DNA from: Paramacrobiotus metropolitanus
Taxonomy: Eukaryota; Tardigrada; Eutardigrada; Parachela; Macrobiotidae
Direction: 5' to 3'
NCBI RefSeq assembly: GCF_019649055.1
Contig: NW_026570246.1
Coordinates: 558,001 to 622,000 of the forward strand
Length of the DNA stretch: 64,000 bases
Shown here: one piece after another, positions 7,207 to 49,481 of the stretch
How positions within the stretch are numbered: the first letter of the stretch is position 1
How the letters are laid out: each line of letters opens with the position of its first letter
Position numbers and translations under genes: made by a program
Notes under the pieces: generated by a model
Databases searched by the model: none
What the model was told of the DNA's origin: nothing
What the model saw: the letters and a program-made list of their open reading frames with translations, nothing else

Positions 7207-10734
<3,528 letters not shown>

Positions 10735-12010: not shown

Positions 12011-15000
12011 ATGGTTCGCTGTTGTATTGTCGGTTGCAACAATAACAGCGATAGAAAGGATTGCACGACTGTGGGACCCCATTCGTTCCACAAATTTCCA
12101 AAAGTAACTCTGCTTCGCGATCGTTGGTTGCGGAGTATCAACAGGCTGGATTTCCAGCCTTCCGTTCATTCTGCCGTTTGTTCTGATCATTTTGAAGCTA
12201 ACTGTTTTAGTGCATCTACTGCCAAAAACAGTTTAAAGCAAGGATGTATTCCTACCCTTTTCGGAGATGCAGTCTCCCGAAAATATGAAAGGAAGGCTGG
12301 TAAGTGGTGAGCTGGTTACTGTAAGGTTTGAGGAACACTCAAACAGCAACTATTTCTATGTTATGCAGTCTGTGTTTTGTGAATTATGATTTGTGTTTTG
12401 AATGACTTAGCGTCAGCAAAAGATAAGGTGGTAGCAAGTAGCAATTAAGTTTTCTTCGAACTGCCAAAAACTGAGATCTGATCAAGAATAAAATTTTTGA
12501 AAATTTTCGTCATAGTCTCTGACGCTTGTCTTTCCACTGAAAATTTTTTAAACAAAATAGAAAAAAAAATCATAGATCATGGTTCAACACAGTAATAACA
12601 ACAAAGAAATAAATTTTCTTTAGGGTGTGTAGTTTGTTTAATGTGGTGTTTTTTCAATGCGCGGATACGGTATTTTGGCTATGATTTGGGAAATATATTA
12701 ATGAGTTGTTTATATTTCCATAGACAGTGTGGCAAGCAACACCGCCACTTCAGCGGAAAATCAGTCTGCACCGACACCGTTCAAAGTTGGTCAGCATCCC
12801 GACTCTGTACTGAAGCTGCGTACGGTATTGGAAGTTAATCCTTTCCAGTATCCCGGATGCACGACAAAACGAGCAGAAGCGTGGAAGCGAGCCGTGGAAC
12901 TGGTGTACAAAAATTCCAACATCGTGTGTCGGGAAGATTCGCTTCGGCAACTGACACGGCGTTGCATTGCGGAGTACGAGTGTAGGCTGAAGGGCAATGT
13001 GCTTTGTTCACCCGACGATTTAATACTGGACGAGGTTGCCCGCGAGTTGTATCTCCTATCACAGAAGCATGCAGACATCAACACTGCGGATGGCAACAGA
13101 AAGCGAAAGAACATCTCATCGGAGGATGACGAGGACTCCATCGGTGCGTTGTCCGACTTCCTGGAGGCATCGGATGGTGAATCGGTAGACGAAGCCGATA
13201 AGACACCGAAATTCGGGCGCAAGCACAAACCGGGCACCCTGGAGAAACTGCGCATCGTGTTGGATGTGAATCCGTTTCAGTTCCCCAGGGGGTCCAAAGA
13301 AACTGGTGCCGCTTGGAAGAAAGCCGCTGAATTAGCGGAAACTGAATACCAGCTGGTCAGCAGTGGGGATGCGATCAAAATTTTAGCCAACCGATGCATT
13401 GCGGAGTACACGATGCTGCTAAAGGCACGGAATGCTGATCTGGAGAATCCTCCACTGACCGCTGATTTCTCTCCCGCCGAAGTAGTTGCACGGCAGCTGT
13501 ATCTGCTGTCGCGCGCGCGCACATCGACTACGGACAACACCGACGGCGGACGGAGGAAGCGAACCGAGCTGTCCACAGACGACGATGCAGATTCAGTTAG
13601 TATTTTGTCGGAGAGCGGGGCAGTGGCTCCTTGTAGCTCTTCAAAGCTTGCAAAAACAGGCGAGGAAGTTATGCAGTGTGGAAACAGCGAGGAGTATGGG
13701 GGCGAGAACGGTCTACCGTCGTCCGACGGAACTACGACGGATTGGCGTTATGGAAAATTTTGTATGTGGAATTGTCTTTCATTAGATGTTTTCCTTTGTA
13801 TCATTTTTGGTGACCGTATAAAGTGGCGTGTTTAATATATTGTTAGAAGCCTGTTGGTACGGGAAGATCTAGGTTTTGTAGTTTAAGAAATTATCTTGCT
13901 TTAGTTTCGCTGCGAGAATTTGCGGATGCTGATTTGACATTTTGTTTGATAGGGTGTTCGGAATGCTTGGTCTTGCTGGATACGCCCTGCTTAATTCACC
14001 GCGTACTGTGTGCAGATGCGCCCTTTATTCCCAGAGCGTATGCTTCTCTACCGCATAATTTACGGTTAGATCTCGGGAAACACGATACAGGTAACTGATA
14101 AAAGCGATTTTGACGTGAAATACAAATTTTCGGTTGCGATGTTGCATGGGAAGTTTCTGTTCGCGCTGTTGCTAACAACAGATGAATTGCATTCCTTTCA
14201 GGGCCAAAACGAATAGTGGCAAAAGGCGATATTGAGCCGCAGTCAATTTTCGGACCACTGTATGCACCGCGGAGGAAGGCAGTACAGAAGGATTTTAAAT
14301 ACGCCACCGTAATGCGTGATGTCAATGGAAATGAAATAATGTGGTACTTCAACCTGGAATGCGATGATACGTCCAACTGGATGAAATTTGTACGAATGGC
14401 TGATACTGTTGCGGAGCAGAATCTAGCAGCATATTGGGCTGATGGGGAAGTGTATTTTGCTGCGATAAGGAAAATACAACCTGGAGAGGAATTGAAAGTA
14501 TGGTACTCGACGAGTTATGCTGCGTTGATTGGCAAAGATATGCTTGGCACTGGAGAGATGCGGTGTCAGAATCGAGCACTGCTGCCGCTAATTAATTCAG
14601 GTAATTATACACATTTCTGAGCAACTTTGATCGTTTTCGTATTCATAAAGACTGTAATAAAAACGTATGGCTTAGTGGGGTTGCAGATCGTGTGCTTGTA
14701 ATTATTCGTATACATTTATTGTTGTATCGATCACAGCGGCGTGACAATGTGAGGTGGAACGACACATACATGCATAGTACACAGCAGTTTCAAATGTAGC
14801 ATCAACTAATTTCCCCATTATCATTACAGATTAATTTTTAGATGATGGTATGGCTGGTTATGAAACTGACGTCGACGAAGCCGAAAACAGCACGGGAATG
14901 TTTGCTGCGAACAGAGTATTCGGATGCGATTTGAGCAAGAATGTTCAGTACGATGATTTTAAATGTGTGGACGTACGCGTAAACGAAGAAACAACCATCT

Positions 15001-16446
15001 CAGTTGTGATGAAGCGTAATGCTGGTATGCCTGGACTATCAGGGAGTATTCCTCCGGCCTTGCTGGCAACTATCCCTAGCGGAAGCAAGAATGCTGAATG
15101 TGTTTCTCCAAAGTCTTTAGCGAATTACAAGAACAGTACAGCTTTGCGTTCCATCGCTCGAAAGAATTTATCAGCTTTCCCGCACGAATGTGAAGTTTGC
15201 CAGGCAAGGTTCCGTACTGCCTATCTTCTGAAGATCCACCAAGTTCGCCATCAACCGGAGGACTTTCCACCGCCGAATATCGCTTTAATTTGTCCAGCTG
15301 GATGCCGTCTGTCTCTTTTGTCATTGGCTCAGCTGGTTGACCATGTGGATCAACATACGGAATATTGGACGTATCGTACCCAGCGCACGGCGCCCACAGA
15401 GTTAAAATACCGCTGTGAAGACTGCAATAAATCTTTTTCCTGCCAGGAAAACTTGGACGTTCATTGTCAATACAGACATTCGGACCTTGGAGGCGATTTT
15501 GAATGTGAATACTGCAAAGAAAGATTCATGACAAAAGCTGGCTGCGTCGTGCATGTGAAGGTATCAGTATTACAGAAGTATAAACATAAGCAGCTTAGCC
15601 TGATTATGAGTTAGAGCCTATAGGGCATGTTTACCAGCAGTTACCTGCATCGCCTTGCCGCTTTGTTAATTTTCAGATTGATACATGTGTACAAATTTTG
15701 AATTTGCTGTTTTTGTTGACTTGTAGGAGATTTTAAGCATTTATTTTACTTGCGACGGCGATTTTGGTCCGATTTCAAGAATGCTACACAATTTCAAGAG
15801 AAATTACAGTAACGTCATTTGATAGTCTTTCTTACAGCACGCCCATTCGGGGATGAATGTCTTCAACTGCCCGGTTTGTTTGGAAACTTTTTCCACGATT
15901 CCGCTTTATAAGGAACACTCCGTAATTCATTGTGTGGATGGAAAATACCCGTGCCGAATATGTTCCAGGGATTATACAACTTTCAAACAGTTGCAGATAC
16001 ATATGCGAACTACACACGTGCCAAAAAAACACATTTGCTCGGTTTGCGGTCAGATGTTCAGAACGGAATGCCAGCTGACCTATCACGGTAGAATTCACAG
16101 CAACGAACTACAATACAAGTGCTCCTTATGTCCAAAAGGATTTCAGACTCCTCACAATCTCCGTACGCATTTAATTGCTCATGATCCGAAGCACGCGGAA
16201 GCGCAGAGACGGGCTAAACAAAAACGTCGACAATCCTTAACCCAGCAGTCACATACTCCGCGAGCAAAGTATATTCCTCCGCGCGACCGGATACGCTATG
16301 AAGATCTTCCATATAAATGCGAGGAGTGTACGCTGGGCTTTATGCGACGCGGCATGCTTCTTATGCACTTTCAAAAGTTTCATCCTGGCAAATCGTTTGA
16401 TAGTATTCCACAGTATGTTGAGCCACCGCCATTGTTTAAGCTGTGA
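12011..16446 (+). CDS. THAP + twin Myb-like + PR/SET + C2H2 zinc-finger protein (PRDM10/15-like)
   Basis: Six exons (12011-12299, 12724-13761, 13953-14090, 14202-14600, 14842-15560, 15838-16446) join in phase to 1063 residues. Residues 1-90 are a THAP zinc-dependent DNA-binding domain: C5/C9 and C57/H60, W39 and the closing IPTLF box. Residues about 125-225 and 270-370 are two copies of one module (KLRTVLEVNPFQYPG and KLRIVLDVNPFQFPR, each with an AWK block, an RCIAEY block and a LYLLS block). I think it is a Myb/SANT-like helical DNA-binding fold, followed by acidic linkers. Then come a PRDM-type Cys motif (FWCSECL) and PR/SET domain (FGPLYAPR, NWMKFVRMAD, EQNLAAYW, GEELKVWY; about 488-605). 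Nine C2H2-type fingers follow, about 738-1050, one atypical. Fingers and PR domain resemble PRDM10/PRDM15, nuclear transcription regulators. The N-terminal THAP and repeat modules are not part of the PRDM proteins I know. A chimaeric gene model is possible but splice phases support one protein. Confidence 0.85.
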
Positions 16447-21789: not shown

Positions 21790-24700
21790 ATGGAAGGTGG
21801 TGGTCGTAAGAAGCTGCATTCTACCGATTCTATCTCGTCGCTCATATCTTGGCCGTGGAATTCCCACGAGAATGCGGGCTATGATGCCAGCTCGATGGGA
21901 TCGTCGATCTACCGGAAGAATATCCGTCCGACGATCAGTGCCCAGGCGTCGCTGTCGGACACAGCAGCCTTCAAATTACAGGCCGTCGACGGTAGGCCTC
22001 TCGATGTGGATGCTCGCGATAGGAAAAGCATCTGTGTTGAGCACCTTATCCGGGAGGTGGTACGGGCGCTGAATGTGGAGCCACTGGCGGCGCATTTATT
22101 TGGGATCTACAGTTGCCGTGATGGTATTTGGCTGGCTCCTTGCCGCGAAATCCGTCTGGATAGTCAAAATGATCGCACACTACAGTTACGGATACGGTTC
22201 TTCTGTGATTATAAACTCCTGGCGGAGAGGGATGCCGCGGCGTTTGAATATCTCTTTCTACAGGTACAGTAGAAAACAGAAAACTACGGATTGGATTTTT
22301 GTATTTCTGATGGAAAAGGAATTTAGTAGTCACTTGAGAACTATTTAAAAGTTTTCGTATCGTAGCGCATATGGTAAGTCTCTTTTTAGTCTTTTAGTCT
22401 CAAATTTTTTTAATCTGAGTTTTATCATGATGATAGTTCACTTTCGCTTGAAAATCCAAATTATATCGTGTCAGTTTACTTTAATTCAATTTTTCTGCAG
22501 GTTTCTGGTTTCGGAAAATATTTTTCCATGTGTGATTTGCGTTATGTGTGCTCAGTTGATTTATCGTTAAAATAAAAACTGGTTTACTATACTTGTACGT
22601 AAAGATTCAAGCAGGCATTCCTTGTTACTGCATTAATTGATTAATAGCTTAATTTTTAATGTGTTCAGATTTTTGTAAAGGATTTTTTTTTGGCAGTATC
22701 GTCAGGATTTCATCGACGGACAGATCGAGGATTTCTTCGACCAGAGCGATGTTGACTGCCTGCCCAGAGCGAGAGGTTTAGCTGTGCTCGATATGGTGCG
22801 AGTGATCAAAGAAGAAGGTCTTTCTTCGGAGCAAGTAATCAAAAGCTGGCAGAAGCGATTTATCCCTCAAGATCTGCAGAAGCGGAACGGTGTGCAGCAG
22901 AAGCTGAAAGCATCCTTAGCCTCTAAAATGTCCACGAAACATTTAAAGGATGCTGTTGACAAACTTGCTGACGAATACAAGAACGGCCCAAAGTATTAAT
23001 GGCTTTTTTCATCGAATATTGTGCAGGTTCGTAAAACTTTTGTTTTTGCAGGTCGATTTTTCTGCTGAAGAAGCAGTTTGTTTGGGGTCTGATGGAACAT
23101 TCGGGACATTATGTGTGCGAGCATTTTTCCTGTCAGTTAGGAGTGAATCCCAACCTTCCCGTTAACAAAGTGCGTCTGAATATTTTGGATGAATTGATTA
23201 CTTTGGAGCGTCGGGAAGGAGATAAATGGATACCATATTGTCGCTTAACGGACATCTGTGATATTAATTTAATCCCGGAAAAGATAGCGTGCCATATCAA
23301 TCGTATTTCCGGTCAGCCGCTGTGTTTTCGGTTCTCTAGCACAGCCGCTCTGGAGTCTTTCATTTCCTTGTTGGATGGATACTTCAGATTTACGCATAAA
23401 TTTTATTATGATGTTTGCCGGGCTCTTTGTAATCCCAGTTTACAGGTATGACAGTCATAGTCCCTTACCTATGATTTAAAACAGTTTACAGTCCCTTAAT
23501 TCGATTTACACAATTTTTATTTAATTTTATAAAATATTAACATTGTTATAAACTTAAAATTTGTTTTTCTCGTTTTTTCTTGGTTTTGTTTTGCCATAAT
23601 TTTCAGTTTTGTGCTGGATCACGCTTTTGTGATGTGAGACTGCAGTTTTAAGTACTCTGTATAATTACTATATTTTTATATGGGTAACTTCGCCTGGTTT
23701 ATGTCGAATTCGCAGTCAGAAGGATGCATTGTTTAACTGTTTAACTTTCATTGTGTTTTTTAACGCTTTGTCGGTATTTTGAAGGTCCTAAGAAGCGAAA
23801 AATGCCATGGCCCTATGGAAAAAGATATGATGTATGAGAAATTACATGGAAAGCCCGAAGGAACATTTGCTCTGAGCCAGTCCACGGACATGTACAATAC
23901 GTTTCGAATCGATGTGGCTGGTAATGTGGAACAGCCCTTCCGATCGTTTGTCATTGATACGACTTGCGACGGCCATTATCGAGTCCGCAAGTCCAAAGTG
24001 GAGTTTCGCACATTGTCGGAGTTGTTGACGTATTATAAATCACCCCATGACGGAATTCTACTGAAAGAATGCCTGAGGCCGCACGAAAATGAGCTAATTG
24101 GACTAAAGCTGTTTCCAAGCTCGTGTGATAACGCTAAGGATACCGGGAGGATGTATGACACGGGAAACTTCTCCGTTCCTCTGTGTATTCCGCCGTCCGG
24201 GCTGACTTACCCGTCGCCTTCACATGTGCACGACGGTAACTGCAAAATTAAAAAAAAATTTATTCGGCGCAGACTGCAGAGCATGGTTTTAAACACGTTT
24301 TAGTCGATTGAATGAAGCTGTGGTTTGAAACACAGTGATGTGATTTATTTTAATGTAAGAAGTTCCTTGATACTGTAGAATTGATACAGCACACGATATG
24401 TACTTGCTTAAAACGAAACGCATGGGTGAAATTAGTCACCGGCTGTATTATTGTGTTTGTGTTTATTTCGGTGCCCTAATGAAAATAGCTTAACCGTTAT
24501 TTGGCATTTTTATTCAGTTTTTTTTGTATAGGGGAGCATAGCCAAGTGCGACGAGGCTGCTTAAAGATCTCTGACAGGAAGAGCGTGGACGTTGCAGTGA
24601 AATCCCTTTCAAGTAATGTCTCTATGGAATCCGCACAAAAATGGCTGGCTGGAGTGCAGACATTAATGCACCTGTCCAACTCGGCCATGTTGATCCGCTT

Positions 24701-26736
24701 CTATGGAATCCTGTTGAACCCGCTAAGTTTCGTAACCGAATATTTCCCGCTAGGCAATGTCCTGCAGTTTCTCCAACAGAAGAGAGCCTTGATATCCCTA
24801 CGGAATTTGTTGGACATTGCCACACAAATTGCTAAAACACTGTGGTGGTTGGATGAACAGAAAGCAGGATACGGGCCGATTCGGGCGAAGAATGTTTTCG
24901 TTGCGGATTATCTAGGCGAATCCGTGAAAGTCGTCGTTGGACCAATCGGGTTGGGCAGTGAATCTGTACACTGGGTGGGCTTGGATTCGAAGGGAGATGC
25001 CAATGATGCGTGGGAGACTTTGTCTCATTCGGATCGGGGAAATTGGGGCTACGGGACATTTCTGTGGGAATTGTTTACCTTTGGGCAGGTGCCGTTATTG
25101 GAAATAAGTGACGAAGAAGCCGAATCTTTGTACAGGTTAGAGCAATCTTTGCATATTATTATGACCATTTTGATTTTTTATCCGTTTTCATGGAGTGTCG
25201 TAAAATTTGCCGTCTGATATCGTTGAAATGCTCCGATTGTCCAGTTTGTGAACTTCAGTAACCGTGTTTTCTTCGTATTAGGAATGGATATCGGCTGGAA
25301 AAGCCTTCAATTTGCCCAGAGGATGTCTACCGGCTAATGGAGCGCTGCTGGCACAATGATCCCTTGCAGCGACCGGCTGTCGATGTGATTTTACGTGAAA
25401 TGAATAAAGTACTCCATCTGTTATATGACGAAAGCAAGCCGCTTTACCCCGATGGAACAATCGAAATCGGAATAAAAAAAGAATCCAAGCAGGAGTTTCT
25501 GCTTCGGGTCACCGGAAATTGTCTGAAACACAGAATGCAGACAGCGGATCTAAATTTAAATAATTTCCTGGGAGAAAGAGAAACAAACGGCAGCCCCTAT
25601 GATCCGTGGCTTATAGAAGAAACGGCGTTGAAAGTCGTCGATAGACTTGGAGAAGGACGCTATGGAGAAGTGAATAAGGTGAATGGTAGTAATGATGACA
25701 TAACGTTGAAGTATTTCTCTCCGTTCTGGGAAAATTATTATGTACTGTATTTCTGTTTGTTTACTTCTATCCTCTGAGTTTTATGTAACCATATAGTGTA
25801 CTACTGGTATTGTTCATCCATCTATTTATCGTTAATGTTAATAAGCATGTCGTTTGTTTTAGGCACTGTACACCGATCCCTTGAGCGATGATGAGCCACG
25901 CGTAGTGGCGGTAAAACAGCTGAAACAAATTAAAGGCGATCGAACGTTCAGCCGAATAATGGATGAAATGCGGGATGAGATGAACATTATGAAATCGCTG
26001 CAGCATGAGAATATCGTAGAAACCGTGGGAATGGTGCTCGATCCAGTGCCCTTGCTGGTGATGGAATTCGTTCAGAATGGAGCTCTGAGCTTATATCTGC
26101 GTAATCACCAGGGCGGTTTATCTCCGACCCATCTGCTACAGTTCGCAACGGATGTTGCCAGCGGCATGGCATATCTGCAGGTAATACTGGAAAGGCGGAC
26201 GGCTAATAAAATTGGAGCTCTAGTACATATAAGAATTGCATAGAGAGTTATAAAGTGCCGTTGCTGTTGTTTAATTAATTAATCAAATTTTGCAGAGCAA
26301 AGATATTGTGCATCGAGATCTTGCCGCGCGGAATATTTTGGTTACCGCGGAACTACGTGGGAAAATTAGTGATTTCGGTTTGGCTCGCTTCATGGATACC
26401 GGTGGTTATTATTTAACACAGAATTTTGGCCGGAGTATCCCATTGGCATGGTATGCCCCGGAAGTGATAGATTATCACAAATATTCGTCCAAGAGCGATT
26501 CGTGGTCATTTGGAGTTCTTTGCTGGGAAATGTTCACGTTTGCCGCACCGCCTTACTTTTGTGATTTAGCCAATTTAAGTGAGAAACTGAAGGAGGGCGT
26601 GCGACTCGCTCAACCGGCTTTGTGCCCCGATGAAATCTACGTTATTATGCGGTCATGCTGGGAATATGAGGCAGCCAAGAGGCCGGATTTCGTTATTTTA
26701 TACCGGACATTTTTTGATCTTTTACAACAGGCCTAG
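21790..26736 (+). CDS. JAK: Janus kinase (JAK; hopscotch-type)
   Basis: Receptor-associated tyrosine kinase of the JAK-STAT pathway. Eight exons (21790-22263, 22697-22992, 23052-23445, 23785-24235, 24532-25135, 25282-25678, 25863-26180, 26296-26736) join in phase to 1124 residues, the usual JAK length. Residues about 60-380 are a divergent FERM region (FIDGQIEDFF, KKQFVWGLMEHSGHYVCEHF). Residues 390-480 are the SH2-like domain, with the JAK-typical CHGP start but no Arg in the expected pocket strand (FALSQS). Residues 535-830 are the JH2 pseudokinase: VAVKSL kept, the HRD region read as GPIRAKNVFV and DFG as VGPIGLG. JH1 follows: GEGRYGEV, VAVK (K890), HRDLAARN (984-991), DFGLAR (1004-1009), tandem YY in the activation loop, and WYAPEV. 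All catalytic residues of JH1 are present. The identification is firm because of the four-domain order. Confidence 0.95.
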
Positions 26737-27554: not shown

Positions 27555-27742
27555 ATCGCTTCTCGGCCTTTTGGCTAAGATCAAAGTGTAGTATCTGTTC
27601 TCGGTAGTGTGACAACTACCGCGACCCCCATTGGGGGTCCGATTGTCACTGGAATTTTTGGAGCGTGGCGAGGCTCTGGAGCTTGCTCTATCCTTGCCTG
27701 GGTTGGCCCAGTATTGCAGTACTTCTGGGATCGGCCCGTCCC
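27555..27742 (+). ncRNA. U2: U2 spliceosomal snRNA
   Basis: The RNA of the U2 snRNP, which pairs with the intron branch point. The 5' domain is near-canonical: ATCGCTTCTCGGCCTTTTGG (stem I), then TAAGATCAAAGTGTAGTATC with the branch-point-binding GTAGTA at 27588-27593. It carries one extra A compared with the usual GATCAAGTG. Stem IIa is CGGTAG/CTACCG (27602-27607, 27616-27621) and stem IIb GACCCCC/GGGGGTC (27623-27629, 27633-27639). The loop of IIa (GTGACAA, 27609-27615) is complementary to TTGTCAC (27643-27649), the known U2 pseudoknot. An Sm site AATTTTTGG follows at 27653-27661. Then stem III (GGAGCTTGCTC) and stem IV (CCCAGTATTGCAGTACTTCTGGG). Length of about 188 matches metazoan U2; the 3' end is approximate. 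Stem II sequences differ from the canonical ones but all pairing is preserved, so a functional gene is likelier than a pseudogene. Confidence 0.93.
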
Positions 27743-28370
27743 TTCGGGGACATCAATAATCAAAGAAAGGGGAATGGGTATGGGTGTAAGAATGAGCTGC
27801 CTCCGCTCCGCATTATGGAGACCGGAAAGCCGTGTTACTTACCGTTAGGATTGTTGTGGTACTTACCGTTAGTACTCTCAAATTTTATTACTCGTGTCTC
27901 TTCAAAACATCCCGAAGATAATTTTCGGTTGCGTAAATAATAAAAAATTTATGATTTCTTTGAGATACCTATTTTGTGTAAAAGCGAAGCGTTACTTTAA
28001 CTGGATTTGACTTTAATTGGTGGCACGTTTCTTATGACGTCGAAGTAGTCGTGTAGCGTCAATCTCGTTGCAATCTTGGCCTTGAGCTGTCAGCTGATCG
28101 GCGCGCATAAACCGTGCCAAAAGTTTGGCCACTGTTTTTATGTGCTGAACCATGTCTGTAGAAGGCAGACTCTGTACGGCGTCGACAGCGTACCACCGTA
28201 GCGCACCGCGTTATCGAGTTCCCTAATCAACAACCAGCTGGTCGATAATTCATTTTCCTTCGAGCCGGTGATTTTTGGACTATTGTGGCGCCGCAGTGCT
28301 CGTTATCGCTGGAGGCAGTATTGTCAACAATCAGCCGAAATCGATCCTATTCAAGCCACGCAAACAGAAA
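27743..28370. other. Intergenic and PFKFB leader
   Basis: Contains the U2 3' flank and the PFKFB promoter/5' UTR. A 13-base word, TACTTACCGTTAG, is repeated at 27836-27848 and 27860-27872. The frame of PFKFB exon 1 stays open upstream of 28371 but has no earlier ATG after 28275. Confidence 0.5.
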
Positions 28371-31773
<3,403 letters not shown>

Positions 31774-38979: not shown

Positions 38980-41816
38980 ATGGCGGAAATGGAGCTGAAT
39001 GTACCGTCAGGACCGGCAAGTGCTATCATAAACGCTACAAATATGAGCGCTCCGATAGATGGTATTCATCCAGTCGGGCCGCTTTTTAATTGGCGCATGA
39101 TGTTCTACTTGGTACATCCCAATGAAGTTCCGGATCTGGATGCGAAAGACCTTGGCCGTGTACCCAACTACTTTGCCCAGGTGCGCCGTCGACAAAAACA
39201 GCATGTTTTTGAATATTTGTAGACTGATCTAGGGTAATTGTGTTTTATGTTTTCGAAGATTGTGTGCGTGAACTGGACACACGTACTTGCATTATGGAAC
39301 GTATAGTTAATATAAGGATTGCACGCGAATACGCAAAGCTGGTCGTTTTTGCTTTTTTCATTCTCTGTGCAATACAAAATCTCTCTAGCCGCGCGCTTAT
39401 TATTTTTTCATTGTTCTGGTTGCAGGCTACCCCCATATTTTACGCGATGCTGTTAATTGAACTGGTCGTAAAATACTGGTATACGGGAAAGGGCTTCCGT
39501 TTGAACGATAGCATCGTACGTACAGATAACTGCGGTCGTGTAAAGCCCGTTATTTGTGCATGGTGGCAAGAAAATTATGACCTTTCCTGTGCTCATACAG
39601 ACTTCCATAACTGCTGGACTGACCATGATGACTACGAAGTAGGTTCACTGTGCGTTAAAAGTTTTCACAAATTGTTCAAGTTGTCAGTGAAGTGTTAAAC
39701 TTAGTGTTCAGAGCAATTGGTACACATTGGTGAGAAAAATAAGACTTTTTAATCCTCCACTAGCATGATCCGTTTGACTTTTTATATACAGATTCCTCGT
39801 GCGGGGAGCGGATTTATTGCTATATGTGTATTTATTTGATAACTGGAGATTGTGGACGATTCCGCTGCGTAGCTGGTCAGGCTGGATTACGGCGGCGCTT
39901 TTGGCGGATTTATCTTTTTATTGGTTGCACAGGATAAGCCATGGTTAGTCGTTAACATCCAGTTGGCTGGGTTTTGTTTTTGATTGCTAGTTTTTGTACA
40001 CGCCTTGCAGAGGTCAGCATTTTGTGGGCCACTCATCAGACGCATCACAGTTCGGAGGTTAGCTGTACTGTACAACATGGATCAACAATCCTTTTGGTGC
40101 CATTAACATTCTACTATTTTACAAAATACTACATTTGTATTTCTACAAAATACTACATTTGTGCATTACCATTAAATGGTGCTTGAGATTTACCTACTCA
40201 ATGCTCTGAAATTTCATGAAAAGGAATAAAGTGCTCAGATTGATATTTTAGAAAAGAATTAGACTGGTTTAGTCAAACTAAAAATAAGACCGCCTGAACA
40301 ATATTATCACCTTTTTCAGAAAAAACGTATTCTCGATGCCAGTAGATCTAGAATTTTAACAGTTAGAGACTCAGAGTTATTAAAATAGTGCAACAAATAT
40401 CGCATCATTAATCATTATGTACTTGTGTAGACCACGGTAGATGCTTGATTTATGCAGGAGTTCAACTTGACAACATCGCAGCGCCAGAGCATCTTTGGTG
40501 GACTGTACGCTTGGATTGCCTACCTTCCGATGGCAGTGTTCGGCTTCACACCTGTTGCGCATATTATCCACTTTCAGATTAACCAGTTGTAAGCATTACA
40601 GCACATTAAAATCTTCCAGTGGAAATCACCTTTGTTTTGTAGGTATCAGTTTTTCATTCATACGACAATGATAAAGTGAGTTCGCTGGAAATACCATAAT
40701 GCACAGTGCGAATTATGTAATGCTAAACATAAACCGGTACTGTATTCTCTAAAGCATTTTGACAAATCTGTCACTTGCTCCTGAATCACAGAAACATGGG
40801 GCCACTGGAGTTATTTCTCAATACTCCCAGTCATCATCGCGTGCATCATGGCAGAAATCGATATTGCATCGATAAAAATTATGCGGGCGCTTTAATCATC
40901 TGGTAAGTTTGTTAAATATGTGAACTTTAAAACACCACAGCTGCAGAAGCCGACTTTTGATGCACTAAATGTAGGGTGCTACTTGTACCGTACGAGACTA
41001 AACATCACCGTTCTGTTTTAAATGCAAAATAATAAGTAAACTGCTCATTACAAAATTATTGTATCGCTGCATAGTGCATAGATACGAAATAAGCTGCAAA
41101 ACTTACAGATGGTGAACAAGTATATCAATTATCATCTTGACAGGGATAAGATGTTTGGGACATTCGAGCCGGAACATCCTAACGAGCAAATCGTCTACGG
41201 TCTCCTGCAGCCGGTGAACACCTTCAACGTCATGTGGATCCAATTCGGCTATGTCGTCGAGTCCATTAGAAAATTGTCCCACTACGACACCATTAGGGAT
41301 AAAATTAGTTCCCTGATTATGGGGCCGGGATGGAAACCAGGAAGTCAGCGTCTGGGAGATCCCGCCAAGTTGCCTGATATCAAAGCACCGATGCCAGTGT
41401 ACGACGTGAAGCTATCTACAGGAAAGAAAATCTACTGTGTCATCCACACCGTGTCAGTGATGTGGTTTTTCAATCATTGTGCCCAGCATTACGAGCAGTG
41501 GAGTATGGCAACGGCGGCATTAGCCTGTTTGTGCGTTTTCGTCACGGTTGGCCATATGGGGTCACTGCTGGATGATCGCTGGTGGATACCGGCTGCGGAG
41601 ATTGTTCGGTGTGGTGCTGGTTTCGGAATTCTTAGAGCGTTCGATGTTTCTCAGGATGTCCGCAACACGGCGATTGTGCTGTATTTTGCTTCGATCGTTT
41701 ACTGGATTACAGTGGTCGTTTCCTTGGGTATGGGCAAAAGGTTATCGACTGCGCTCAGAAAAAAGAAAATGATCGAAAAGGCTGTGAAATCGGTCTCCCC
41801 AGTTAAACACAAATAA
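38980..41816 (+). CDS. AGMO: Alkylglycerol monooxygenase, copy 1
   Basis: Membrane-bound, tetrahydropterin-dependent fatty-acid-hydroxylase-family enzyme that cleaves the ether bond of alkylglycerols in the ER. Nine exons (38980-39180, 39426-39515, 39601-39638, 39792-39943, 40011-40057, 40458-40588, 40643-40675, 40792-40902, 41144-41816) close in phase to 491 residues. The histidine motifs that bind the di-iron centre are intact: [15 protein letters not shown] and [21 protein letters not shown]. Other family blocks are [24 protein letters not shown] (38-base exon), [57 protein letters not shown] and LDDRWW. Several hydrophobic helices are present in the N-terminal half and again near the C terminus. 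A second copy lies 5 kb downstream with identical lengths for all seven internal exons. The start is set by comparison with copy 2. Confidence 0.94.
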
Positions 41817-42634: not shown

Positions 42635-45600
42635 ATGGCATTTAATGAGGCAACCAAGGAAATCCCTCGAAAATTCATTAGTACGGAGAAGAACCATGCC
42701 AGAGTTCTCAGCGATGATGCTACAGTACAGGAAGCCAGGCTAGTTGTTCTCCCCGGAGAACTTTTCCATTTGGTGTGCACTACCGATGACAACCAGCCTG
42801 GACAAGAAGCACTTTTTCTTATGTCACTGGATCGTGCCAGTGTGTTAATGGAAACCGATACGAGATTCGTGCGAGAAATTTCCAATTATATGGCGGAACT
42901 GCTGTTGCCCGTGGATCGGCCGAGACGTCTTGGATTATTGAATGAACATCGTCAAAATCTGCGACTGGAGGAGTTCATGCAGGTGGAACCGGGGACCGGT
43001 GTGACTGTCTCCTTTGACAATATGCCATTTCCTGGCGTCGTTTACTGTCATGGGCTAGTGCCAGAAAAGGGGCCGGGAATATGGTTCGGTGTTTGGTTGA
43101 TTCATCATGCTGGCCAGGGCGATTCTGACGGTTCCGTTAGCGGAAAACGTTATTTCACTTGCAATCCAGATTGTGCGGTGTTTGTAACGGTGGCCGATGT
43201 GGTTCTGCGGAACGAATCAAACAGCAGCTCTGATGGTACTCGTCTCGCGATAGGGGAGCGTTCACCACAGAATCCTTCGCCGCAGTGCAATACCAATGCT
43301 CTCGCCCTCGGTGGAAATTCGCCTGGAAAACGAGGACAGTCTCCCACGGAGTCGAAAAGTATCGTAAACCTGTTGCACGGTGCCGTTAATGTTGCAGCCA
43401 ATGCGATCGGATTCCATAAAGGAAGCCAGTCTCCTCGTTCGGAATTTTCCAGAAGCCAAGTTTTCGTTAATTCTAATCTGGCGCCTAAAGCCTCGACAAG
43501 TATCCCTTCGCCGCCTGTATTCCAGAGTTCCGGAGCGGTGCCTGCGAATCCTTCGGTTGATTGTGTGCCGTTTAAGTTGAATGACCGGGTTTGTTTCCTG
43601 CAGGATAAGGGCGACCCGGAAATTGCCACAGTCAGATGGATCGGCTGGCTTTCAAAAGAACCTGGAAGCGATTTATACGCAGGGATTCAGTTCGTGAGTT
43701 GTCTTAATGTAGCGCACTGGACTTAATGCTTTGCTAAGTTTTATCAATTTTGAGAAAATAAAATTTCAGTACGTATTTGCATCTCCTAGGATAAACCAGT
43801 TGGTAGTGGAACAGGACAATTCAATGGAGATCAGATTTTTGTAACCCCACCGAACCATGCTGCTATTGTTCCTGTAATATCTTTGTTAGCCTATGAGGAA
43901 GCCCAGGAGCGGGCTCACGCACAATCCTGCCCTTTAAGAGTACAGCCGCAGATAGTGAAGAAACCCTCTTACAGTGAATGTGCAAATAGACCACCCCAAA
44001 ATTCTCACGCAGGATTGCCTTCGTTGGAAAATGCGGCCGATGCATCTAAGCGCTCAGTACAGCCCGCTGCAGTTTCTTCTTTATCAAGCCAGGATGTCTC
44101 GAAGCCGTCGTCTGGACCAAATCCTCGATTAAATTCAAAACCATCGCATCCGGTGCCGCAGTTACACCCAGCTTCTTTGCGTCGCATCGATGACCGGATC
44201 TGCAGTGGTAGAGCACGTGGTATCCAAGGCCACAGAAATTCCTGCTATGTGGACGCCACCTTATTCAGTATGTTTGCATTTACTGATGTCTTCGACGAGA
44301 TTTTGCACCGGCCTAGAAGAAAGCGCGACATCCATGGTTATGACGAAGTCCAGGTAAACTATTTTGGCTCACTGAACAGTCAGAACGCTGCAGACGGGTG
44401 TTGCAGAAGGTCCTGTTGCATTGGTATTTTAGCGTCTGTTGTGCATACTTCATAGTGCGCTCTCCGTGAAGGAATTGTCAGTCCACTTCGGAACACCATG
44501 TATGTGCCGTGTGTAGATGTAATGCGACTGCGGGAACTGATGGATGAGTTCGGAAATGTAACCGGATTGACCGATGAAGAGCGTGATCCGGAGGAGTTTT
44601 TGACGTCGTTGTTCCAGCAAATCCTTAAAATTGACCCTTTGTTAAAGTTAACAACGGGCGATTGTAACTGGTACACACTTTTTGTTGAAAAGGACCAGAT
44701 GCACCTCATCCCCACTGTGCAGCAACTATTCGACGGATCTTTGGTGACTTCCAGCGTTCGCTTTAAAGAGGTCTGTCCAGTGTTTTTGTTTGTCTGTTTT
44801 AGTCTTATATTTTATGTTCCACGGTATCACCAGATGCGAAGCGGGGAAACTGGTTTCCTGACGGGGAACGGGGAAACTACTAACTGAAACGGTGCCGGTC
44901 TCATTGTCGTTCTTGCTTACACAGGTGCCTAAATGTCTGCTGCTCCTGGCCCCGCGCTCGGGAACAGAGTACAAAATGTACCGCTACATTTATCCCAGCG
45001 CAGTCTTGGATATCACCGATGCGATTGCCGGCTATCCTCGACAGTGCTCGTTCTGTCAGGAAAAAGAAGCGGAATTCGAATGCAAGGAGTGCTATAACTG
45101 GATGCATTTGGAGGGCGAGACTCGTTCGGCACTGAGCACAATGGCTTTTTGTAAGAAGTGCTCCGCTAAACGCCATCAGCGCTATCCCAAGCACAAGCCT
45201 TATAAGATTCAGACCACTTTGGCACTGCTGCCACAAGAACAAGTGCGCATGGAATTGTTTGCTGTTGTATGCATCAAGGCCAGTAATAATATTTACGTTT
45301 CCTATGCCAAAGATGGCAACAGTTTGTGGTATCTCATGGACTCCATGGCCGATCGAGAGTGCGGGGAAGGTGCTTGTGGCTCTAATATTCCTGAGATTCG
45401 TGCCTGCCCGGACTTTAATGAATACTTGGATCTGGAGTTCGGCCATAAGCGGTTAATGGAATATTTGGAACGCCATCTTCAACCCCCCGAATCTGTGCGG
45501 ACTATATGCGAGGATTGTTATATTTTCATGTATCAGCCTATCGGTCTCGGTAGACTGGATGCGGAAAAGGGACAAGTACGTTACCGTGCCCTTACTGGCC

Positions 45601-45991
45601 CACTTTTTAAGAAATGGTTGACTATGCCTTTAATATTATTTCGTTATTGTTAATATTATTTCCTTTTGTTTCGTTGCAGGCAAGCGATGTAACAAAAATG
45701 CATAATAAGGTACTGGAGTTGGAACGAAAACTGCAAGGTTTGTTGTCTCAAATAATCAATTAATTAATATCACCTACTGAAAATCGCATTTTTTTATTCC
45801 TTCTAGCACTACAGCAAGAGCATCGGCGGGTGTGCGAGGAGCGGCACTGTAAAATTTGCCTGGATAAAAATGTTGACGTGGCCTTTCAGTCATGTGGACA
45901 TTTGAGCTGCAGCAACTGCTCACGAACACTGCATGACTGCCCGGTCTGCCGCAAATCTATTTCGGCCAAAATAAAGTTGTTTTTTAATTAA
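42635..45991 (+). CDS. CYLD: CYLD-type ubiquitin hydrolase fused to a C-terminal RING finger
   Basis: CYLD removes Lys63- and Met1-linked ubiquitin from signalling proteins and restrains NF-kB/IMD-type pathways. Six exons (42635-43693, 43790-44353, 44456-44770, 44925-45575, 45680-45737, 45807-45991) close in phase to 943 residues. CAP-Gly-like regions lie near residues 130-170 (FDNMPFPGVVYCHGL) and 314-384 (VRWIGWLSKEPGSDLYAG, GTGQFNGDQIF). The USP domain starts at about 495, with catalytic Cys505 in GHRNSCYVDATLF, then DPEEFLTSLFQQIL and PTVQQLFDGS. A zinc-binding B-box-like insert follows (CSFC, CKEC, FCKKC, RHQRYPKHK). DSMADRE carries the acidic triad residue. Where family members have a catalytic His before a Tyr-Val/Ser-Tyr run, this protein reads SNNIYVSYAK (Asn768, Ile769). 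Human CYLD ends soon after DCYIFMYQ-equivalent sequence; here a coiled coil (KVLELERKLQALQQ) and a C3HC4 RING (CKIC, SCGHLSCSNC, CPVC; 897-935) follow. Confidence 0.9.
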
Positions 45992-46768: not shown

Positions 46769-49481
46769 ATGACTGCAGACGTTCACAATATTGCGAATGC
46801 TACCGGAAATGGGACGGAGATTTTCCCGCTCTTTAACTGGCGGCTAATGTTCTATCTTATTCATCCTAGTGAAATTCCCGATCTTGATCCTAAGGATGTC
46901 GAAAAAATACCAAATTATGCCAATCAGGTAAATCTGATACAACAGGGTAAATTGGTAACTGAACGTTTCTGCGATTGCAAATTAGTTATCCAAATAACAC
47001 TGTCAACAAATGCTAAAAATACTGTATGTGTTTTGGCCAGAAAACCGTATTAAAATTTTTCCGGCCATATAACACTACGCGATGTTACCATGTACAAGTA
47101 ACTACGAGTAGCTGTTTCTAGAGTGACAGTATGTCAGTATATAGATATAATATCTATACACGTAGTTAGGTGCTATACCGTAATCAAATGAGGCTTACGT
47201 TTTGTGGTTTTGATACATCAATACATACCTGTGTACCCATTTTCTTTCAGGTGATCTTCGTATTCATGGGAATGATTTTGATCGAACTGGCTGTGAAGTA
47301 CTACTACACAGGAAAAGGATTTCGCATAAATGACAGCATTGTAAGTCCTGCACTCACTGCAGCTTTGTCTTTGAATACTACTCTATATATTATGGTTAAC
47401 GTTGACCACAGTTGCTTTTGTGAAGTATTAATCTGTTTCTGGTATTTTTTGGTGCAGTAGTGATAATATAGATTATCATGTTTGTACCGCGTACTTATCT
47501 TTTGCTCATTGCAGGTCTCGATGACCGCCGGAATTGTTTCCCAGAGCGTCAAGTAAGATGGGAAAAAACGATAGCATATTCATCAGCACGTCTATCGGCT
47601 GTGCGTGTGTGTTTTTGTTTTACCTACTCTATTAATCGTAAGTATATATACAATTCGTTTGCCTCTGATATTGATTTTTTGGCAAACTATTTATTAGGTG
47701 ATTTTTATTGTGTAGTTGTACAAGTGCAGCTTGCTTAAAGCCGGTTAAAATTTGTCAAGGTTTCTTCTTCGTGGAGTGGACCTGATCGTTTACGTATACA
47801 TCTTCGACAATTGGAGATTATGGACGATCCCGCTGAAAAGTTGGACCGGTTGGATTCTAGCGGCTTTGGCAGCCGATTTGGCTTATTACTGGCTACACAG
47901 ATTGAACCACGGTATTTTGTTTAGCTTTAGTTTTACTAATAACACCTGATGTGTATTTAATCAACATAGTTTGAGCTTATTTAATTATAACTCTAGAGTT
48001 CCCTTAAAAGGTGCAACATTTTTGCAGAGGTTAGCATCCTTTGGGCAAGTCACCAGACTCACCACAGCTCTGAGGTATGGACATCCTAATGAAAATTTAT
48101 TGATACATAACACGCCTGCTCTACGTATTAATACATAATTAGCACGACTGCAGTATCAGAAAATATCGTAGTCCTTGATCATCTAATAATCAGTTTAAAG
48201 AATGCGTTTGGCATCTAAAAAAGAGTGCGTTTTGCATAAACAGGAGTACAATCTCACGACAGCCTTACGACAAAGCGCGTTCGGAGCAATATACGCATGG
48301 ATTGTGTATCTTCCCATGGCATTCTTTGGTTTCACACCTGTTGCTCATCTGATTCACATCCAAGTTAACACATTGTATCTGGCAGCTATTCCTCAGCTGT
48401 CGCTATGGTTTTTATAAACCGTATTTCATTCTCAGGTATCAATTCTACATCCACACAACTGTAATCAAGTAAGTTGGACATCATAGCTACGTTGCGCCTG
48501 CTGACGAAAAAATTATGCGCCGGTGCATTTGTACTTACGTTTTCACTTTTCACAGGAGCATGGGTCCACTGGAACTGATTCTCAACACACCCAGCCATCA
48601 TCGTGTCCACCATGGGCGGAACCGCTACTGCATCGACAAGAACTATGCCGGAGCTTTAATTATCTGGTGCGTCTAAGAAATTATACAAATACAAATAATA
48701 TGAAAAAATTAGCATAATTTCTTGCGCGAAAGGTAATTAAGTGTTTGTTTAACGCGACACTATTACATGACTAATAACGCGAAAAGAACTAAATACCTTT
48801 CTCAGGGATAAAATGTTTGGCACCTTCGAGCCGGAACATCCCGATGAGCCGGTCGTGTATGGCATTCTGACGCCGATCGCCAACTTCAACGGCATGTGGG
48901 TGCAGATTAACTACTACACCGAAAACATCATGAAATGCATGAACTACAAGACACTGAAGCACAAAATGATGTCACTGTTCATGGGTCCGGGATGGATGCC
49001 GGGTACGCCGCGTCTCGGTGACCCCGCTACACTGCCCGACATCAAGCATCCGGCCATGGTGTACGATGTGAAGATCTCCAAATGGAAGAGCGCCTACTGT
49101 GTTGTCCACACGCTGGCGCTGCTGTATTTCTTCGACCACTGCGCCCAGAATTACGAGCAGTGGGATATTCCTACGGTGTGGATTGCCTGTGCGTGTATCT
49201 TTGTGACGGCCGGCAATCTGGGCTCGCTGCTGGATGATCGCTGGTGGATACCGGTGGCGGAAATTGCACGCTGCGGTATCTGTTGGGTACTAGCGCGGAA
49301 GGATTTCGGCTTCTCGGAGCGGGCGGTCACCGTGGGAGAAGTACTGTACGCACTGTCCGGATGGTTCTGGGTGGCGGCGCTGATTTTTGCCGCCAAAAAT
49401 AAGAAAGAAATCCCAATGGAGAAAAGGCGATCGCTGGCCGAACCGGCAGTTGCGGTTCTGAAAACGGAAAAAAGCGATTAA
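46769..49481 (+). CDS. AGMO: Alkylglycerol monooxygenase, copy 2
   Basis: Paralogue of the gene at 38980-41816, same family and expected reaction. Nine exons: 46769-46927, 47251-47340, 47515-47552, 47760-47911, 48028-48074, 48244-48374, 48436-48468, 48556-48666, 48806-49481, in phase, 478 residues. Exons 2-8 have exactly the same lengths as in copy 1 (90, 38, 152, 47, 131, 33, 111). The di-iron histidine motifs are kept: [15 protein letters not shown] and [14 protein letters not shown]. The N terminus is 14 residues shorter ([20 protein letters not shown] matches copy 1 FNWRMMFY). The last exon ends in a different Lys-rich tail. Both copies look active. This is a tandem duplication interrupted by CYLD on the same strand. 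Which copy is the older is not visible from the sequence. Confidence 0.94.

Follow-up and report, generated by a model that had tools for sequence, protein, structure and literature searches.

The window analysed here is a 64,000-nucleotide stretch of a Paramacrobiotus metropolitanus contig (C26:558001-622000), and the searched genome comprises 169.8 Mb in 533 contigs. The published assembly of Paramacrobiotus sp. TYO is described as built from Nanopore and Illumina reads at 45x and 62x (PMC8277472). On the forward strand of the window, at 42635-45991, lies a six-exon gene, here called CYLD-A, whose exons join in phases 0, 0, 0, 0 and 1 into 943 codons free of internal stops. Exon 1 (42635-43693) carries the ATG, the N-terminal region, the first CAP-Gly domain (residues 132-188) and the beginning of a second CAP-Gly region, which is completed in exon 2 (43790-44353), where a linker and the start of the USP domain follow, with catalytic Cys505 at 44243-44245. 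The USP domain continues through exon 3 (44456-44770) and exon 4 (44925-45575); the latter includes B-box-like cysteines and ends in the residues ...MYQPIGLGRLDAEKGQ. Two further exons extend the reading frame, namely a 58-nt exon 5 (45680-45737) encoding a heptad helix and exon 6 (45807-45991), which encodes the end of the helix, a C3HC4 RING (first Cys, residue 897, at 45848), a linchpin Arg931, a tail Phe941 and the stop.

Domain searches of the joined protein against Pfam returned CAP_GLY in two stretches (1.3e-23), UCH at 5e-5 (23.5 bits, slightly below the 23.9 cut-off) and zf-C3HC4_3 at residues 894-935 (8.7e-11). The top solved-structure match is human CYLD (2vhf; E 1.4e-78 over residues 490-851), and the B-box Cys pairs in the USP domain, putative zinc ligands, align with those of the human protein. 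CYLD-A shares with human CYLD its CAP-Gly domains, a USP domain with B-box cysteines and the MYQ end; it differs in the replacement of a catalytic His, in the additional helix and RING, and in having two Pfam CAP-Gly stretches against the three CAP-Gly domains reported for human CYLD (PMC8511506).

Elsewhere in the window, matches to the Alkylglycerol monooxygenase C-terminal domain flank CYLD-A at 41082-41813 and 48771-49478 (forward strand; 31.9 and 28.5 bits, cut-off 28.3), and upstream exons similar by eye suggest that they are tandem copies. A full-length U2 spliceosomal RNA lies at 27555-27744 (forward strand; 155.5 bits). In the scan of seven open frames in the window, two gave no match; those at 8632-9414, 14835-16443, 24489-25214 and 30081-30701 (forward strand) match, as a set, FGGY carbohydrate kinase, C2H2 zinc fingers, tyrosine-type kinase and 6-phosphofructo-2-kinase/phosphatase.

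Splicing across the CYLD-RING boundary

An earlier note on this DNA had described a complete RING in the last exon and proposed that it belongs to one polypeptide with the CYLD catalytic domain, citing exact phase continuity, two short introns and the lack of a start codon context ahead of the coiled coil. The first two points and the complete RING were borne out. The frame runs without a stop from the end of the catalytic domain through the 58-base exon into the RING exon; intron 4 (45576-45679, 104 nt; donor CAA/GTACGT, acceptor TTGCAG) and intron 5 (45738-45806, 69 nt; donor AAG/GTTTGT, acceptor TTCTAG) have the proposed lengths and GT/AG ends; and the RING has all eight zinc ligands. The point on the start codon fell, as an in-frame ATG sits within exon 5 at 45698-45700.

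That ATG could serve as the start of a separate small helix-RING protein, in which case CYLD-A would end within intron 4, where retention of the intron adds 25 codons and then a stop at 45651-45653. We regard such a pair of adjoining genes as rather unlikely. Both introns have canonical ends and pyrimidine-rich acceptors, and exon 5 converts phase 0 into precisely the phase 1 required by the RING exon; its length of 58 nt is needed because skipping it throws the RING out of frame. Intron 4 contains neither AATAAA nor ATTAAA; between 45576 and 46600 such signals occur just twice, in the final part of the RING exon (45970 and 45987). A promoter for a second gene would have to fit into approximately 120 nt or lie within the USP exon. 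Moreover, a hand-read heptad pattern (M-V-L-L-L-H-V at a/d spacing) continues over the junction of exons 5 and 6, and its strength in the first 28 tail residues exceeds that expected from permutation (p = 3.6e-4). The chance that a RING-family candidate lies on the correct strand no more than 500 nt from where CYLD ends is ~3e-4, given 219 first-look RING candidates (150 scored) spread evenly over 169.8 Mb and leaving the phase match uncounted. The best reading of the DNA is a single protein, presumably translated from a single transcript, in which a CYLD body carries its own RING.

Relatives of the RING exon

The closest solved matches of the CYLD-A RING are BIRC7, BIRC3, BIRC2 and XIAP (5.5e-15 to 1.7e-12). 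In addition to the zinc ligands, it retains the linchpin Arg931 and the tail Phe941, corresponding to R606 and F616 of cIAP1, both reported as required for cIAP1 activity (PMC6349121); the Phe was placed by hand-counting from the linchpin Arg, and the same count puts a Lys at the site of cIAP1 R614. The cIAP1 dimer is described as formed by the RING, the RING tail and the preceding helix (PMC6349121), an arrangement that the helix encoded by exons 5 and 6 of CYLD-A fits. By these residues, the RING bears the marks of an IAP-type dimeric RING E3, and dimerisation is predicted. The likeness to IAP RING E3s (cIAP1/2, XIAP and BIRC7) comprises the C-terminal C3HC4 RING, the helix before it, the linchpin Arg and the tail Phe; unlike them, CYLD-A bears its RING on a CYLD body and has no BIR among the six Pfam families reported for the joined protein at E-values up to 10.

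Gene structure adds a second line of comparison. The CYLD-A RING exon begins in phase 1, 14 residues ahead of the first Cys. The same phase and distance are found in a RING exon on the minus strand at C5:2757486-2757668, which is preceded by a 62-nt exon. Two BIR matches lie further upstream in the same orientation (2758367-2758882); from their closeness, we infer that these BIR and RING exons form one IAP-like gene. In a second IAP-like gene (L006), the RING exon also begins in phase 1, 18 residues out, and follows an 80-nt exon. The phase-1 agreement was established from splicing worked out for L005 and L006; for L035 and L036 it was judged by eye. In several other IAP copies (e.g. L009, L011 and L015) the RING lies within one long open frame and the intron is absent, so these copies are uninformative on this point. 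No UBA domain reached the cut-off in the two IAP-like tails. The shared phase and distance point to capture of the RING exon from an IAP-type gene.

The donor cannot be named from the tree of RING sequences, in which CYLD-A, L005 and other loci share an open fork, and the nearest genomic RING is only 48% identical to it. A query with exon 6 gave 119 matches in the genome, with the exon itself as the sole one on C26 and no second copy of it among them. Of the 119, 51 RING loci besides CYLD-A were taken (11 and 40). Nine of these were excluded because the pattern used detected no RING (33 of 42 loci were positive), and L008, L010, L012, L013, L020, L021, L025, L034, L039, L044, L045, L055 and L056 were left off as near-duplicate or dissimilar. 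The 33 rows of the tree consist of the remaining 29 loci, CYLD-A and three human sequences, with 65 of 73 columns kept.

The BIR/IAP family is very large in this genome. Searches for it gave 491 first-look candidates, and all 150 that were scored exceeded the cut-off; many share identical scores across different contigs, as if recently multiplied. Twelve places in the RING family profile search share a score of 56.6 bits (e.g. C148:145596, C172:7137 and C1:365141), with open frames of 76-128 aa, and are perhaps carried by a repeat. Genome-wide searches for these and other families, including RING, BIR and Rel-homology, gave matches in none of 14 control genomes.

A second CYLD locus and the missing catalytic His

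A USP-region query detected two CYLD loci in the whole genome (four matches, two per locus). The second, CYLD-B, lies at C26:629264-632893 (L016 1765-5394), begins ~25 kb downstream of the end of CYLD-A and encodes 1064 aa with an intact Cys/His/Asp triad. The two copies are identical at 675 of 855 aligned residues and have introns 1-3 at shared positions. They differ in exon 2 (1134 nt in CYLD-B against 564 nt in CYLD-A, reflecting a longer linker in CYLD-B) and at the end of exon 4: CYLD-B stops 22 residues past MYQPI, with a tail unlike that of CYLD-A, and its last exon closes with a donor-like GAG/GTATGA. Accordingly, the 3' end of one copy or the other must have been altered.

These features of the CYLD-B end would also suit a history in which the RING was ancestral to both copies and was later lost by CYLD-B, a question of history that leaves the proposed mechanism unaffected. 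We consider this order of events unlikely: a tail query over a 9.9-kb N-free stretch reaching 4.5 kb beyond CYLD-B revealed no convincing RING or remnant of one (best E 0.28), and human CYLD is not known to have a RING. Gain of the RING by CYLD-A is the order that we prefer.

The earlier note, which could see neither CYLD-B nor that the RING exon probably came from an IAP-type gene, also missed a change in the protease itself. At the catalytic His site, CYLD-A reads KASNNIYVSY, against KTSHYVTF in CYLD-B and ETSHYVAF in human CYLD; the CYLD-A sequence has two additional codons and Asn-Asn-Ile (residues 767-769, codons at 45285-45293) in place of the His, which is H871 in the human protein. Cys505 and Asp785 (codon at 45339-45341) are kept and align with the catalytic residues C601 and D889 of human CYLD. 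The Cys-His-Asp triad is thus broken in CYLD-A and whole in CYLD-B. In human CYLD, H871N is reported as catalytically inactive and co-purified with ubiquitinated RIP in an optineurin-dependent manner, while the wild-type protein brought down very little or no ubiquitinated RIP (PMC3049778). The CYLD-A USP domain is accordingly predicted to be without deubiquitinase activity. Counting against this prediction, some deubiquitinases initially called inactive are reported to have been reconsidered (PMC10919355).

This prediction bears on the proposal that CYLD-A is a self-contained ubiquitin editor following the logic of A20. A20/TNFAIP3 combines an OTU protease with zinc finger 4 as an E3 module in one protein, and CYLD-A resembles it in joining a ubiquitin-removing fold to an E3 module, although the parts differ and the CYLD-A protease is predicted to be dead. 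The polypeptide bearing both modules is favoured by the DNA; the editing function ascribed to it is unsupported, because the catalytic His is missing. If A20-like editing is taken to mean an active protease and an active E3 in one chain, CYLD-A, with its broken triad, would fall outside it. An editor with both halves working would draw on the retained Cys505 and Asp785, the conserved USP sequence and the whole set of RING ligands. It is nevertheless improbable, given a site that has both lost its His and gained two codons where CYLD-B and human CYLD retain the His, and given that H871N serves as the inactive form of human CYLD (PMC3049778).

Substitution patterns between the copies indicate constraint. 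Pairwise dN/dS is 0.185 overall and 0.096 in the USP domain; exon 4, whose synonymous sites are close to saturation, gives 0.071. By region the ratio ranges from 0.07 to 0.40. Only 64 of 362 USP residues differ, counting both lineages together, against roughly 160-234 changes expected in CYLD-A alone if unconstrained (dS 0.56-1.02). A USP dN/dS of ~0.10 argues against CYLD-A being an old pseudogene; as dN/dS averages all the time since duplication, a recent loss of the His would be hidden, and the ratio does not date that loss. With human CYLD as the outgroup (345 columns), CYLD-A departs at 15 sites and CYLD-B at 6 (p = 0.08). This somewhat faster change, together with the lost His, would fit a decaying CYLD-A, with the His loss and the tail as by-products and no functional protein made. 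Such decay is very improbable for a gene with 943 stop-free codons, the regional dN/dS values given above and an unbroken set of RING ligands. Differences at fourfold sites climb from 33/140 in exon 1 to 26/57 in exon 4 (p = 0.003), a 5'-to-3' gradient that suggests gene conversion at the 5' end.

A probable pseudo-deubiquitinase with a putative ligase module

Our preferred reading, which we consider probable, is that CYLD was duplicated, that copy A lost its catalytic His and gained IAP-type exons to become a pseudo-deubiquitinase acting as an E3, and that copy B stayed intact and RING-less. The duplication would have occurred in this tardigrade lineage; copy A would have taken over the terminal exons of an IAP-type gene, a short helical one followed by the one for the RING, and its USP domain would have lost the catalytic His, with copy B remaining a whole CYLD. 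The CAP-Gly domains and dead USP domain of CYLD-A may then hold ubiquitin chains or CYLD partners uncut, while the heptad helix and RING would pair as in cIAP1 and activate E2~ubiquitin with the help in trans of the C-terminal Phe. CYLD-A would thereby add ubiquitin at sites where CYLD-B would remove it. The fusion is known from one species and one genome, where it was read from DNA alone.

Several reports on human CYLD touch on these steps. CAP-Gly2 and CAP-Gly3 are reported to bind ubiquitin and the B-box to induce dimerisation (PMC8511506), an adapter role is described as possible for catalytically inactive CYLD (PMC10919355), and the B-box is reported to have no E3 activity in vitro with 16 E2s (PMC13061254). 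A literature search of titles and abstract openings, with subscription papers mostly outside its coverage, found no CYLD-RING protein. Among pattern stretches in prokaryote genome contigs (98) and viral contigs (56), no relatives of the fusion were found; both are poor places to look for an animal gene and are silent on other tardigrades.

Genome-wide, Rel-homology gave one partial match over the cut-off (C124:21443-21652, 39.6 bits), which may represent NFAT or a remaining NF-kB gene; a missing match would not show absence.

More tentatively, and at somewhat less than an even chance, the locus may represent a natural reversal of function, in which a His-less deubiquitinase paralogue took up an IAP RING by exon shuffling and became an E3, its dead protease domain directing it to the K63/Met1 chains handled by the active CYLD-B and to that protein's partners. 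This would have arisen in tardigrades, a group reported, in a study that perhaps did not include this species, to be without Relish and most of the Imd pathway (PMC7056985). If the proposed mechanism is correct, CYLD-A would clearly exemplify the rebuilding of a pseudo-deubiquitinase into a ligase, and the sister gene close by, which is probably active, would provide a built-in control. CYLD-A would also allow a direct test of whether an E3 can be aimed by a protease domain that is itself dead, and would show a possible reuse of CYLD in animals for which Relish and most Imd genes are reported missing (PMC7056985).
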